Shown here piece after piece: positions 27,600 through 32,977 of a stretch of 64,000 nt of DNA. Within the stretch, counting starts at the first letter, position 1; each line of letters opens with the position of its first letter. The DNA comes from Aquincola tertiaricarbonis (lineage in GTDB: Bacteria > Pseudomonadota > Gammaproteobacteria > Burkholderiales > Burkholderiaceae_C), in NCBI RefSeq assembly GCF_023573145.1, contig NZ_CP097636.1, positions 3,472,001-3,536,000 of the forward strand, written 5' to 3'. Made by a program: the position numbers and the translations under genes. Under the pieces are notes generated by a model. The model was given only the letters and a program-made list of their open reading frames with translations, was not told where the DNA came from and did no database searches.

Positions 27600-28607
27600 T
27601 CAGGCGGACAGCAGTTCGCGCAGCACGGGCAGCGCGCGGTCGATGTCGTCGGCCGTGACATTCAAATGGGTGACGAAGCGCAGGGTGTAGAGGCCGGTGC
27701 ACAGCACGCCGCGTTCCGCCAGGCGCTCCACCAGACCAGCGGCCCGCTCGGCCGGCAGGTCGACGAACACGATGTTGGTCTGCGGCGGCGTGACCTGGAC
27801 GCCCGGCAGGCCTTGCAGCCCCTCGGCCAGCCGGCGGGCGTTGGCATGGTCTTCGGCCAGGCGATCGACGTGATGCTCCAGCGCATGCAAGGCCCCGGCC
27901 GCGATGATGCCGGCCTGCCGCAGGCCGCCGCCCGCCATCTTGCGCCAGCGGTGGGCGCGCTGGATGAATTCACGCGAGCCGCAGAGCGCCGAGCCCACCG
28001 GCGCGCCCAGGCCCTTGCTGAAGCACACCGACACGCTGTCGAACGGCTGCGCCAGCTCGGCCGCGCTGCGGCCCGACGCCACCGCCGCGTTGAACAGGCG
28101 CGCGCCGTCCAGGTGGCAGGCCAAACCCTTGCTGCGGGCCAACGCGGTGGCTTCCTGCACATAGGTCTGCGGCAGCACGCGGCCGCCCCAGGTGTTTTCC
28201 AGGCACAGCAGCCGGCTGCGCGCGAAGTGGGCGTCGTCGGGCTTGATGTTGGCGGCGATGTCGGCCAGCGCGATGCTGCCATCGGCCTGCTGCGGCAGCG
28301 GCTGCGGCTGGATGCTGCCGAGCACGGCGGCGCCGCCGGCTTCCCAGCGGTAGCAATGGGCCTGCTGGCCGACCAGGTATTCGTCGCCGCGCCCGCAATG
28401 GGTCATCAGCGCCACCAGGTTGCTTTGCGTGCCGCTGGGCACGTACAGCGCGGCCTCGAAGCCCAGCATCTCCGCCACCCGCTGCTGCAGCCGCAGCACC
28501 GTGGGGTCGTCGCCGAACACGTCGTCGCCCACCTCGGCGCGGGCCATCGCCTCGCGCATCGCCGCCGTCGGCCGGGTGACGGTATCGCTGCGCAGGTCGA
28601 TGGTCAT
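27600..28607 (-). CDS. ltaE: Low-specificity L-threonine aldolase, inserted in the trp operon
   Basis: This 335-residue fold-type I PLP enzyme cleaves L-threonine or L-allo-threonine to glycine and acetaldehyde. Visible: [33 protein letters not shown], Asp167 in [10 protein letters not shown], and the PLP lysine Lys198 in [20 protein letters not shown]. The ATG at 28607 overlaps the trpG stop (ATGA). It is therefore co-transcribed with the trp genes, although it has no step in Trp synthesis. Substrate stereospecificity cannot be read from the sequence. Confidence 0.93.
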
Positions 28608-29179
28608 GATCGCTGGCTCTGGGTGATGAAGTTGCGCAGCATGGCGTGGCCATGCTCGCTGAGGATGGATTCGGGGTGGAACTGCACGCCTTCCAGCAGC
28701 ACTTCCTTGTGGCGCACGCCCATGATCTCGCCGTCGTCGGTGGTGGCGGTGATCACCAGCTCGTCGGGCAGCGTCTCGCGCTCGATGGCCAGCGAGTGGT
28801 AGCGCACCACGTCGAACTGCTCGGGCAGGTCGGCGAACACACCGCGCTGGTCGGTGCGGATGCGGCTGACCTTGCCGTGCATCTGCACCTGCGCCCGCAC
28901 CACCTTGCCGCCCAGCGCGGCGCCGATGGCCTGGTGGCCCAGGCACACGCCCAGCAGCGGCAGCTTGCCCTTGAAGTGGCGGATGGCCTCGACGCAGATG
29001 CCGGCCTCGGCCGGCGAGCACGGGCCGGGCGACAGCACCAGCTGGTCGGGCTTCAGCGCCTCGATGCCGGCGATGTCGATCTCGTCGTTGCGGAAGACCT
29101 TGACCTCCTGCCCCAGCTCGCCGAAGTACTGCACCAGGTTGAAGGTGAAGCTGTCGTAGTTGTCGATCATCAGCAGCAT
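28604..29179 (-). CDS. trpG: Anthranilate synthase glutaminase subunit
   Basis: This 191-residue class I glutamine amidotransferase supplies ammonia to TrpE. The catalytic Cys79 is in [12 protein letters not shown] and the His-Glu pair in [14 protein letters not shown]. The start [21 protein letters not shown] is the family N-terminus; the longer upstream frame lies inside trpE and is rejected. It is separated from the trpE stop by one base. In some bacteria this subunit also serves folate synthesis. Confidence 0.97.
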
Positions 29180-29180
29180 G

Positions 29181-30656
29181 TCAGAACCCCTCTTCCACCA
29201 GTTCAGCGGCGCGGATGAGCGCCCGGGCCTTGGCCTCGGTCTCCTTCCATTCCAGCTCGGGGACGGAATCGGCCACCACGCCGGCCGCGGCCTGCACGTA
29301 CAGCGTCTGGTCCTTGATGATGCCGGTGCGGATGGCGATCGCCAGGTCCATGTCGCCGGCAAAGCTGAGGTAGCCGCAGGCGCCGCCGTAGATGCCGCGC
29401 TTGACGGGCTCCAGCTCGTCGATGATTTCCATCGCGCGGATCTTGGGCGCGCCGGTCAGCGTGCCCGCCGGGAACGTAGCCTTGAGCACGTCGAGGTTGG
29501 TGGTGCCCTCCAGCAGCGAGGCTTCCACGTTGCTGACGATGTGCATCACGTGCGAGTAGCGCTCCACCACGAAGGCCTCGGTGACCTTGACACTGCCGGT
29601 CTTGGCGATGCGGCCGACGTCGTTGCGGGCCAGGTCGATCAGCATCAGGTGCTCGGCTCGTTCCTTGGGGTCGGCCTTCAGCTCGGCTTCCAGCGCCAGG
29701 TCCTGCTCGGGCGTGGCGCCGCGCGGGCGGGTGCCGGCCAGCGGGCGGATGGTGACCTTCTCGCCTTCGGACGTGGTTTCCTGGCGCACCAGGATCTCGG
29801 GCGAGGCGCCGACGATCTGGAAGTCGCCCATGTCGTAGAAGTACATGTAGGGCGACGGGTTGAGCGAGCGCAGCGCGCGGTACAGCGTCAGCGGTGACTC
29901 GGTGTAGCGCTTCTTCAGCCGCTGGCCCACCTGCACCTGCATCATGTCGCCGGCCGCGATGTACTCCTTGGCCACGGCCACGGCCTTCAGGTAGTCGGCC
30001 TTGTCGAACTCACGCTCCACCGCATAACTGGCGCCGCGGCGCACCGGCGGCGCGGTGACGCTGAACTTGAGCTTGTCCGCCAGTTCCGACAGCCGGCGCT
30101 TGCCCGAGAAATAGGCCTCGGGCCGCGACGGATCGGCGTAGACGATCAGGTACAGCCGGCCTGACAGGTTGTCGATGACGGCCAGCTCTTCGCACTGCAG
30201 CAGCTGGATGTCGGGCGTGCCGATGTCGCCGGGCTTGGCGGCCTTGGCCAGCCGCGGCTCCATGTAGCGCACCGCGTCGTAGCCGAAGTAGCCGGCCAGG
30301 CCGCCGCAAAAACGCGGCAGGCCGGGCCGCAGCGCCACCTTGAAGCGCTGCTGGTAGGCCTCGATGAAGTCGAGCGGGTTGCCTTCGTGGGTTTCCACCA
30401 CCTGGCCGTCGGTCACCACCTCGGTGCGCAGGCCGGTGGTGCGCAGCAGCGTGCGCGCTGGCAGGCCGATGAAGGAGTAGCGGCCGAAACGCTCGCCGCC
30501 CACCACGGACTCGAGCAGGAAGCTGTGCGGCTGGCCGCCGGCCAGCTTGAGGTACAGCGACAGCGGGGTTTCGAGGTCCGCGAACGCCTCGGCGATCAGC
30601 GGAATGCGGTTGTAGCCCTGCGAGGCCAGGCTCTTGAATTCGAGTTCGGTGATCAT
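29181..30656 (-). CDS. trpE: Anthranilate synthase component I
   Basis: This 491-residue chorismate-using enzyme makes anthranilate. The N-terminal feedback site [20 protein letters not shown] is intact, suggesting Trp sensitivity. The catalytic domain shows RYMYF-type [52 protein letters not shown] and [23 protein letters not shown] Shine-Dalgarno lies 8 nt before the ATG. A 220-nt leader with a Trp-containing peptide precedes it. Confidence 0.97.
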
Positions 30657-30737
30657 GTGTTCAGCCCTCCGGGCCCCGGCGCAGACATGGCGTGGCCGGG
30701 GTCGACAGTCGGAATTGCGGGGAAGCGGTGGCGGTGC

Positions 30738-30814
30738 GGGCGCTGTGCTCAGCCGGCCCGTAGGCGGCGTGCCAACCAGCCCGCCCGTTGCAAACTAGAC
30801 GGAAGCAGGCTGGC
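30738..30814 (-). promoter_or_regulatory. Candidate trp attenuator (alternative RNA pairings)
   Basis: Three mutually exclusive minus-strand pairings are visible: 1:2 (30808-30814 with 30775-30781), 2:3 (30771-30777 with 30751-30757, with three G-U pairs) and 3:4 (30750-30753 plus 30756-30759 with 30738-30745, loop 30746-30749). Hairpin 3:4 is the terminator candidate, but no U tract follows, so the termination mode is uncertain. Confidence 0.5.
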
Positions 30815-30875
30815 GACGCCAGGGCCAGGCTCCCCGGTCGTTCGACCTCGTCGTGAGTTTGCGCGGCATGAACAT
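30795..30875 (-). CDS. trpL: Candidate trp leader peptide, 26 residues
   Basis: An ORF of 26 codons starts at ATG 30875 (a second in-frame ATG is at 30869) and stops at 30795. It encodes MFMPRKLTTRSNDRGAWPWRRQ followed by PASV. Two Trp codons (30825-30827 and 30819-30821) flank one Pro, near the end of the peptide as in known trp leader peptides. The Trp codons lie just before RNA segment 1 of the candidate attenuator. A TGCTATAGT extended -10 ends 8 nt before the ATG, so the message would be leaderless or nearly so, and no Shine-Dalgarno is present. This is inference from sequence; expression is not shown. Confidence 0.55.
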   Translation of the reverse strand: MFMPRKLTTRSNDRGAWPWRRQPASV

Positions 30876-30883
30876 GGTCGGCG

Positions 30884-30892
30884 ACTATAGCA
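30884..30892 (-). promoter_or_regulatory. Candidate trp operon promoter (extended -10)
   Basis: Minus-strand TGCTATAGT (TATAGT at 30884-30889). No good -35 is visible, but the extended -10 matches that of the tRNA-cluster promoter. The expected start is at about 30877, beside the leader-peptide ATG. Confidence 0.5.
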
Positions 30893-30916
30893 GCGCCCGT
30901 ATGATCGCCGCCTCCC

Positions 30917-32977
30917 ATGGCAGACACCCTCAACCCCGCCCAGCTCGAGGCGGTTTATCACCTCGACGGTCCCTGCCTCGTGCTGGCCGGCGCCGGCTCC
31001 GGCAAGACCCGCGTCATCACCCACAAGATCGCGCGGCTGCTGCAGGCCGGGCTGGAACCGAAGCAGATCGCGGCCATCACTTTCACCAACAAGGCCTCGC
31101 AGGAAATGCGCGAGCGGGCCAAGTCGCTGGTGGGCCCGCGCGCGGCCAAGGACCTGGTGGTGAGCACCTTCCACTCCCTCGGCGTTCGCATGCTGCGTGA
31201 AAGCGGCACCCGGCTGGGCCTGAAGGAGCAGTTCTCCATCCTGGACAGCGACGACGTGCTGGGCGTGCTTCGCGATGCCGGCGGCACCACCGACGCCGCC
31301 ACCGCCCGCCGCTGGCAGTGGACCATCAGCCTGTGGAAGAACCAGGGCCTGAACAGCGACAGCGCGCTGGCTGCCGCCAAGGACGCCGACGAGCAAGTGG
31401 CCGCCCGGGTGATGAAGCTGTACGAGGAGCGGCTGGCCGCCTACCAGGCGGTGGACTTCGACGACCTGATCAGCCTGCCGCTGAAGCTGCTGAACACCGA
31501 CGAAGAAGCCCGCGCCGACTGGCAGGGCCGCTTCCGCCATGTGCTGGTGGACGAGTATCAGGACACCAACGCGGTGCAGTACGAGCTGCTGAAGGCCCTG
31601 GTCAGCCACCCCGACGACCGCCTGGCCGGGCGCTTCACGGCGGTGGGTGACGACGACCAGAGCATCTACGGCTGGCGCGGCGCCACCATCGAGAACCTGC
31701 GCCGGCTGCCGCAGGACTTTCCAAAGCTGAAGGTCATTCCGCTGGAGCAGAACTACCGCTCCACCGGCGCCATCCTGCGCGCGGCCAACAACGTGATCGC
31801 CGGCAACCCCAAGCTGTTCGAGAAGAAGCTGTGGAGCGACTTCGGCGATGGCGAGCCGGTGCACCTGATGGAGTGCGACGGCGAAGAGCACGAGGCCGAG
31901 CGCGCCGTCTCGCGCATCCAGGCGCTGCGCGCGCAGGGAGGGCAGGTGAAGTTCAGCGATTTCGCGGTGCTGTACCGGGCCAACCACCAGGCGCGTGTGT
32001 TCGAGCAGAAGCTGCGCGCGGCGCAGATTCCCTACAAGGTGTCGGGCGGCCAGAGCTTCTTCGACCGCGCCGAGATCAAGGACCTGTGCGCCTGGCTGCG
32101 GCTGCTGGTCAACCAGGACGACGACCCGGCCTTCCTGCGCGCGGTGACCACGCCCAAGCGCGGCATCGGCCACCAGACGCTGGGCAAGCTGGGCGAGTTC
32201 GCGGGCAAGTGGAAGCTCAGCCTGTTCGAGGCCTTGTTCGCCGAGAGCCTGGGTGTGTCGCTCAATGCCAAGGCCATCGGCAGCCTGCACGAGTTCGGCC
32301 GCTACATCAACGACTTCGAGCACAAGGCCCGCCACACCACCGGCGGCGAAGACGCCAAGACGCTGCTGCTGGGCTGGCTGAAGGACATCGGCTACGAGCA
32401 GCACCTGTACGACAGCGAAGAAAGCGAAAAGCTGGCCGCCTCGCGCTGGTCCAACGTGATGGACTTCATCGACTGGATCGCCAAGCGCTGCGGCGGCGAG
32501 ATCACGCAGGACGGCGGCACCTTCGAGAGCGAGCGCAAGAGCGTGCTGGAGGTGGCGCAGACCATCAGCGTGATCATCAGCCTGGCCGAGCGCGGCGAGG
32601 AGCAGGACGTGGTCACGCTGTCGACGCTGCATGCCTCCAAGGGCCTGGAGTGGCCGCATGTGGTGCTGGTCGGCGTGAACGAGGGTCTGCTGCCCTTCCG
32701 CAGCGACACCGAGGAGATGACGCCCGACCGCCTGGAAGAAGAACGCCGGCTGATGTACGTGGGCATCACCCGCGCGCGCACCACGCTGGCGGTGAGCACG
32801 CTGCGCCGGCGCAAGAAGGGCCGCGAGACCATCCAGGGCATTCCCAGCCGCTTCATCGCCGAGATGAAGCTGCACGAGTCGTCGAACAAGGAAGACCCGA
32901 AGGAGCGGCTCAAGAAGATCCGCGAAGCGCTGGCCGCCAAGGCGGCGGCCGCGGCGCCGCCGGCTACATCCCCTTGA
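30917..32977 (+). CDS. rep: Rep/UvrD-family DNA helicase
   Basis: This 686-residue SF1A 3'-5' helicase has all core motifs: Walker A GAGSGKTRVITHKI (about 24-38), ITFTNKASQEMRERA (Ia), DEYQDTNAVQYELL (II), GDDDQSIYGWRGA (III), LEQNYRSTGAIL (IV), LSTLHASKGLEWPHVVLVG (V) and EERRLMYVGITRARTTLAVS (VI). Length and sequence style favour Rep, a replication-fork accessory helicase, over UvrD, which is longer. It is divergent from trpE and its end overlaps the response-regulator gene by 14 bp. Confidence 0.93.
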   Translation: MADTLNPAQLEAVYHLDGPCLVLAGAGSGKTRVITHKIARLLQAGLEPKQIAAITFTNKASQEMRERAKSLVGPRAAKDLVVSTFHSLGVRMLRESGTRLGLKEQFSILDSDDVLGVLRDAGGTTDAATARRWQWTISLWKNQGLNSDSALAAAKDADEQVAARVMKLYEERLAAYQAVDFDDLISLPLKLLNTDEEARADWQGRFRHVLVDEYQDTNAVQYELLKALVSHPDDRLAGRFTAVGDDDQSIYGWRGATIENLRRLPQDFPKLKVIPLEQNYRSTGAILRAANNVIAGNPKLFEKKLWSDFGDGEPVHLMECDGEEHEAERAVSRIQALRAQGGQVKFSDFAVLYRANHQARVFEQKLRAAQIPYKVSGGQSFFDRAEIKDLCAWLRLLVNQDDDPAFLRAVTTPKRGIGHQTLGKLGEFAGKWKLSLFEALFAESLGVSLNAKAIGSLHEFGRYINDFEHKARHTTGGEDAKTLLLGWLKDIGYEQHLYDSEESEKLAASRWSNVMDFIDWIAKRCGGEITQDGGTFESERKSVLEVAQTISVIISLAERGEEQDVVTLSTLHASKGLEWPHVVLVGVNEGLLPFRSDTEEMTPDRLEEERRLMYVGITRARTTLAVSTLRRRKKGRETIQGIPSRFIAEMKLHESSNKEDPKERLKKIREALAAKAAAAAPPATSP

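Follow-up and report, generated by a model that had tools for sequence, protein, structure and literature searches.

The DNA analysed here, referred to below as the window, is a stretch of 64,000 nucleotides from Aquincola tertiaricarbonis. The region of interest is flanked by trpE, which encodes anthranilate synthase component I, and by a divergent gene for a Rep-like helicase that starts at 30917. Downstream of trpE lie genes for a TrpG-type amidotransferase, a threonine-aldolase-like protein, and trpD; the second of these, resembling low-specificity L-threonine aldolases, occupies 27603-28613, with trpG and trpD as its neighbours in the trp cluster. An initial annotation had placed a hidden trpL with a Trp-Pro-Trp motif between a -10 element and trpE, and the ORF is indeed found there, together with the further elements collected in Table 1.

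Table 1. Features of the trpL-trpE region, in window coordinates.
Feature	Position	Strand	Remarks
Extended -10 element TGCTATAGT	30884..30892	-	8 nt 5' of the trpL ATG
trpL leader ORF, 26 sense codons, peptide MFMPRKLTTRSNDRGAWPWRRQPASV then stop	30795..30875	-	conserved core RGAWPWR; ATG at 30875, TAG at 30797-30795 (re-read from the window sequence)
Long-range helix, 5' strand GCAAACT	30856..30862	-	7/7 pairs with 30796-30790
P1 hairpin GGTC-GAAC-GACC	30836..30847	-	just 5' of the Trp codons; covaries
Internal Shine-Dalgarno-like GGGGAG	30830..30835	-	ends 2 nt 5' of the first and 8 nt 5' of the second Trp codon
Two Trp codons, TGG CCC TGG	30819..30827	-	window sequence; both Trp in 65/67 own-family regions
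Long-range helix, 3' strand AGTTTGC	30790..30796	-	overlaps the trpL stop codon
P4 hairpin CCCCGGC/GCCGGGG	30674..30701	-	5' of the trpE ribosome-binding site; read from sequence, paired in the predicted fold
trpE Shine-Dalgarno GGAGGG	30665..30670	-	read from sequence
trpE, anthranilate synthase component I	29181..30656	-	TIGR00564 above cut-off; ATG at 30656

To place this ORF among its relatives, trpE was sought in 120 genomes and found in 115, and upstream DNA was taken for 90 loci. The sample of the window's own family comprised 72 genomes, one per genus except for two of the window's genus, and yielded 67 trpE upstream regions; four genomes without a trpE match and one with a partial match (G009) were left out. 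Of these 67 regions, 65 contain, no more than 400 nt from trpE, a short ATG-started ORF that encodes a W-x-W-R motif. The two without it are L020, whose upstream DNA amounts to only 119 nt, and L060, whose upstream DNA amounts to 342 nt. Adding a leader from a neighbouring family (L057) gave a working set of 66, and a locus from another family (L061) was dropped, having a matching motif without a comparable leader. Across the 66 leaders an Ala, the two Trp and the Arg that follows are invariant, the Ala being encoded by GCC in 52, GCT in nine, GCA in four and GCG in one, and the Arg after the second Trp by CGT in 33, CGC in 19, CGG in nine and CGA in five; such variable third bases in invariant codons are the pattern expected of a translated sequence. 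The invariance of Trp and Arg is a product of selection, because the set was chosen by W.WR, and the fair measure of conservation is the 65 of 67.

In named genome contigs the exact core was found at no fewer than 118 loci, and among the matches listed 112 of 118 have trpE downstream, in five of the other six the sequence runs out no more than 130 nt past the Trp codons, and the 80 that were listed include Rubrivivax, Ideonella, Roseateles, Acidovorax, Comamonas, Rhodoferax, Paraburkholderia and Burkholderia. The exact core pattern occurs in 277 of 399 family genomes, a figure that exact matching makes an undercount, and it is single-copy in all but four; the window's own genome carries one copy. 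That the ORF arose by chance in GC-rich DNA, for which its small size is the only argument, is hardly credible beside its retention in nearly every own-family region, the tie of its core to trpE, its codon pattern and the promoter spacing described below. The leader ORF is a genuine conserved trpL, with its translation predicted from these sequence patterns. Among the matches listed, L154, from a Paraburkholderia symbiont, is the sole core locus with ample downstream sequence in which trpE was not detected.

In other Burkholderiales families (21 loci, L070-L090) the W-x-W-R motif is present at 11 loci, nine of them reading W-R-W-R, and the Trp codons lie 60-84 nt 5' of trpE in eight of the 11. 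At L071, L076-L079, L081, L083 and L086 a W-R-W-R ORF with this short distance leaves little room for an intrinsic terminator.

An extended -10 element, TTTGCTACACT (in the window TGCTATAGT), is common to the leaders. In 63 of the 66, a TANNNT box is separated from an in-frame ATG by 6-10 nt, the -10 at this spacing being mostly TGCTACACT; the corresponding count is 14 of 622 arbitrary upstream control points, in a test that allowed up to three ATGs per leader and one point per control. The profile of the 63 promoters is that of an extended -10, TTTGC-TACACT, and it contains no -35 signal. In a larger leader set the box stands 6-12 nt before the ATG in 143 of 180 cases, 6 and 7 nt being the commonest spacings. 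According to the early part of the peptide, leaders with the -10 element were divided into two groups, S (RK type, to which the leader of the window belongs; 45 distinct) and C (95 distinct). A Shine-Dalgarno sequence was not found in the 18 nt before trpL, where mean anti-Shine-Dalgarno binding is -0.11 kcal/mol (n=63), as against -6.17 kcal/mol by the same measure for the trpE upstream region. Since transcription starts about 7 nt after the -10 box, the conserved spacing would put the end of the transcript at the trpL ATG or a few nucleotides before it. We infer with good reason that trpL is transcribed near-leaderless in groups S and C, from a start predicted by this spacing, in line with what had been suggested for the window.

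A third group, B, consists of 37 mostly Burkholderia-type leaders; a -10 box next to the ATG was not found in these 37, and the near-leaderless inference therefore stops at groups S and C. Group B keeps the RGAWPWR core, and its peptides are of the MFLN(K/R)KRS type in 28 of 37. At nine of its loci (L091, L095-L097, L099, L104, L108, L114 and L118) the distance from the stop codon to trpE is 268-384 nt.

Within the ORF, the GGGGAG site binds the anti-Shine-Dalgarno sequence at -5 kcal/mol or better in all 66 leaders, whereas windows starting at W-4 to W+2 never reach -5 kcal/mol and windows further upstream do so in at most 20%. The site is written with CGG in 59 of 66 leaders and GGA in 58 of 66, codons which account for 3% of 67 Arg codons and 0% of 56 Gly codons, respectively, where trpE begins in those genomes. 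Its mean energy is -7.1, whereas synonymous sequences drawn according to the codon use of trpE average -2.5, and the site has the lower energy in 66 of 66; all 11 non-consensus cores stay Shine-Dalgarno-like (-5.6 to -10.3), even with changed amino acids. Draws reach -5.5 in 70% of cases with uniform codon choice and in 5.7% with trpE codon use, so that much of the effect could stem from the amino acids, and the bases could instead be kept for RNA pairing. Tentatively, and with more doubt than belief, we propose that GGGGAG acts as a built-in ribosome brake, anti-Shine-Dalgarno pairing holding the ribosome at the second Trp codon of a leader whose output uses no intrinsic terminator. If this is true, the brake would make a sharp Trp sensor from as few as two Trp codons, and would do so inside a gene that itself starts without a Shine-Dalgarno sequence.

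The same site might be read as the start signal of an internal ORF beginning at an NUG that overlaps the second Trp codon. The spacing to this NUG is 7 nt, and in the 66 leaders UGG is preceded by C, T or G and never by A; yet the commonest triplet is CUG (53 of 66), a poor start codon, and the end of the ORF is not conserved, the share of leaders in which it stops no more than 20 nt from the start of trpE (18% in S, 24% in C) being like that for the other frame (18% and 20%). We regard such an ORF as very improbable. Both alternative frames running into trpE were examined for ORFs and rejected, their ends not being conserved.

RNA pairing was assessed by comparing each strand's own (cognate) partner with partners from other genomes in 2000 permutations. 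As the sequences are related, and three groupings were each tested for 14 pairings, the permutation values are only guides. The P1 hairpin has a cognate excess in both groups (S, z 4.4, 2/2000 permutations; C, z 7.3, 0/2000). In group S, ORF nucleotides 8-26 pair with a 43-nt stretch that starts 3 nt upstream of the stop codon (z 4.4, 0/2000); in group C, ORF nucleotides 0-14 pair with -115..-45 of trpE (z 3.7, 0/2000) and nucleotides 8-26 with -45..-2 of trpE (z 3.3, 1/2000). A long-range helix of at least six Watson-Crick pairs is present in 23 of 45 leaders of group S (12.9 expected) and 48 of 95 of group C (32.4 expected), and the openness of its 3' strand relative to its surroundings is 0.40 versus 0.39 in S (n=23) and 0.66 versus 0.41 in C (n=48). 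Predicted folding is on average stronger than in shuffled sequence for windows after the stop codon and around -60..-15 of trpE, in both groups (best mean z about -0.7 to -1.1); for the leader of the window as a whole the gain over shuffles is 1.06 sd and not significant.

Two other searches for pairing partners were abandoned. An RNAduplex search for the long-range partner gave GC-rich noise and was replaced by the cognate test, and a landmark scan, whose high scores partly joined the 5' end to the trpE start region, was set aside, since conservation on the two sides is something that shuffles leave uncontrolled. In group C, a frequent GAATGAAC at about -80..-55 of trpE is complementary to the trpL 5' end (ATGTTCATTCA). 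In L040 both strands are altered (TCTAAACA/TGTTTAGA) and the pairing is kept.

The pairings that had been proposed for the window were a different set, namely the mutually exclusive 1:2, 2:3 and 3:4 of a classical ribosome-stalling attenuator. Their segment coordinates were not given in the initial annotation, and the distances it states between the Trp codons and segment 1, 5 and 11 nt, point to CCAGCC as that segment. In the window this segment pairs with a GGCTGG after the trpL stop, but GGCTGG was not found after the stop in L002, a sister genome with 97% identity in trpE. In group S the three pairings gave z -1.9 (n=37), 0.8 (n=45) and -1.1 (n=45), and the corresponding windows in group C gave z -1.9, 0.6 and 2.6, the last with 10/2000 permutations. 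The comparison of regions upstream of trpE thus upholds the W-x-W-R ORF and lends no covariation in the window's group to the stems proposed with it, while P1 and the long-range helix do covary.

A classical E. coli-type transcription attenuator also calls for an intrinsic terminator. None was found by a terminator scan of window positions 30400-31400, and the initial remark that no U tract follows 3:4 holds. Across the relatives, lax criteria gave terminator-like sites in 16 of 140 leaders (S 5/45, C 11/95), scattered and with no common place, and T5 runs occur in 4 of 45 (S) and 16 of 95 (C). The Trp codons and the stop have the positions that a classical attenuator needs, and the 3:4-type window in group C has the cognate excess just given; against these stand the terminator and T-run counts and the negative values for 1:2 in both groups, and we consider this mechanism improbable here. 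The off-step is probably not an intrinsic terminator.

With no conserved terminator, the output would be Rho-dependent or translational. Rho-dependent termination could take place in the untranslated stretch after trpL and be opposed by the stalled ribosome or by structures that it allows. The trpL stop and trpE are separated by 85-234 nt in the 66 leaders, intrinsic terminators are not conserved, and C exceeds G with a skew of about 0.12; the leader skew, however, is no higher than that of the trpE start in S (0.120 versus 0.144) and about equal to it in C (0.115 versus 0.112), and so provides no distinct Rho signal. We hold this to be plausible, if short of probable.

Control of trpE translation would follow a scheme proposed for the LEU element discussed below, the core GGGGAGCC being base-paired to the ribosome-binding region of trpE except when it is covered by a stalled ribosome. 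In group C, complementarity between the core and the 16 nt preceding trpE exceeds that of shuffles (z 7.5; 7.6), with lower values for the controls trpG, trpD and trpC (z 3.0, 0.9 and 1.8). In group S the excess before trpE is z 2.7 (n=47), with a mean difference smaller than that for trpG (z 1.9, n=28), although the window -22..-7 reaches z 3.7. The cognate test of the core gave z 0.7 and 0.1, with few distinct cores (n=6 and 8). Nor did folding with a model ribosome clearly change the accessibility of the trpE Shine-Dalgarno sequence: with the ribosome at the Trp codons, stalled minus naked was +0.003 (S) and +0.015 (C), against -0.002 and +0.020 for shuffled middles (paired z 0.4 and -0.5), and with the ribosome at the trpL stop the accessibility was slightly lower than naked in group C only (-0.022, z -2.1). 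Because control genes show part of it, the core-to-trpE pairing is kept as an alternative mainly for group C, and we judge translational control by this route rather unlikely. Between the two routes we lean slightly toward Rho, mainly on account of the long untranslated stretch that follows a translated ORF.

Taken at the level of sequence comparison, the locus is likely to be a family-wide trp leader that would read the supply of Trp-tRNA by the position of a ribosome; its output probably works by something other than an intrinsic terminator. Judging from the conserved spacing, transcription would begin at or within a few nucleotides of the trpL ATG, from the extended -10 promoter. A ribosome would then translate trpL and, when charged Trp-tRNA is scarce, slow down at UGG-CCC-UGG, as the conserved Trp codons suggest; the Shine-Dalgarno-like sequence ending 8 nt 5' of the second UGG may prolong the stop. 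Stopped there, the ribosome would melt P1 without blocking the early ORF, which could then pair with sequence at and beyond the trpL stop. Covariation supports P1 and the long-range pairings themselves, and the leader may switch between these states. The stalled state would permit trpE expression and a ribosome that finishes and leaves would not, the candidate off-steps being Rho-dependent termination and control of trpE translation.

As in the trp attenuator of E. coli (trpL), a short ORF with two close Trp codons precedes trpE. The E. coli trp leader has a Shine-Dalgarno sequence, the 1:2/2:3/3:4 set and a U-tract terminator; here the ORF has no Shine-Dalgarno sequence before it, conserved terminators are absent, the pairings are others and a Shine-Dalgarno-like sequence lies inside the ORF. 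A likeness to Sinorhizobium had been suggested as well. Passages of PMC7298713 describe the rnTrpL/peTrpL system of Sinorhizobium meliloti, in which the transcript starts at the trpL ATG and precedes trpE, the peptide has 14 aa and acts in trans, and an sRNA is made by attenuation. The likeness goes as far as a start predicted at or near the ATG and the position before trpE; the peptide here would have 26 aa, and a terminator able to release an sRNA was not found.

In the relevant passages of PMC1262725, the actinobacterial LEU element is a leader ORF with a conserved long-range pairing and a run of leucine codons that pairs with the Shine-Dalgarno sequence, and its authors consider leader translation unlikely as the mechanism. 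It shares with our trpL a leader ORF containing codons of the regulated amino acid and a conserved long-range pairing, and differs in amino acid and gene; complementarity of the core to the Shine-Dalgarno sequence is here clear only in group C. The same passages describe mycobacterial cys leader peptides with a conserved ORF and no conserved terminator hairpin, for which the authors suggest Rho; these two properties are shared by our leaders, which differ in pathway and phylum. Passages on trp control in gammaproteobacteria (PMC5343134), passages of a study whose method misses Rho-dependent cases (PMC2965389), and passages of PMC4833913 contain no description of this trpL, and neither do those of the two papers above. 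A search of full-text literature, whose scope largely leaves work in subscription journals aside and so makes a prior description possible, likewise found none, and the peptide words RGAWPWR, GAWPWR and AWPWRR had zero occurrences among the literature matches listed.

A Trp-sensing leader of this kind is indicated in hundreds of betaproteobacterial genomes, and scans for intrinsic terminators would overlook it. Its relatives form a natural set of near-leaderless regulatory ORFs in which the coupling of leaderless translation to RNA polymerase can be studied. The effect of internal Shine-Dalgarno sequences on elongation is disputed, and it becomes testable where evolution appears to retain one at a regulatory stop. 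The leader is also missing from Rfam: with release 15, Trp_leader, which we take to be RF00513, gave no match in the window or 20 relatives, and nothing reached a gathering score at trpL in the window or in these relatives. In one of the 20 relatives (L049, 247-290, minus strand) a sub-threshold Glutamine-II match lies over trpL, with 21.1 bits against a gathering score of 33 and an E value of 0.11, and is taken as chance.
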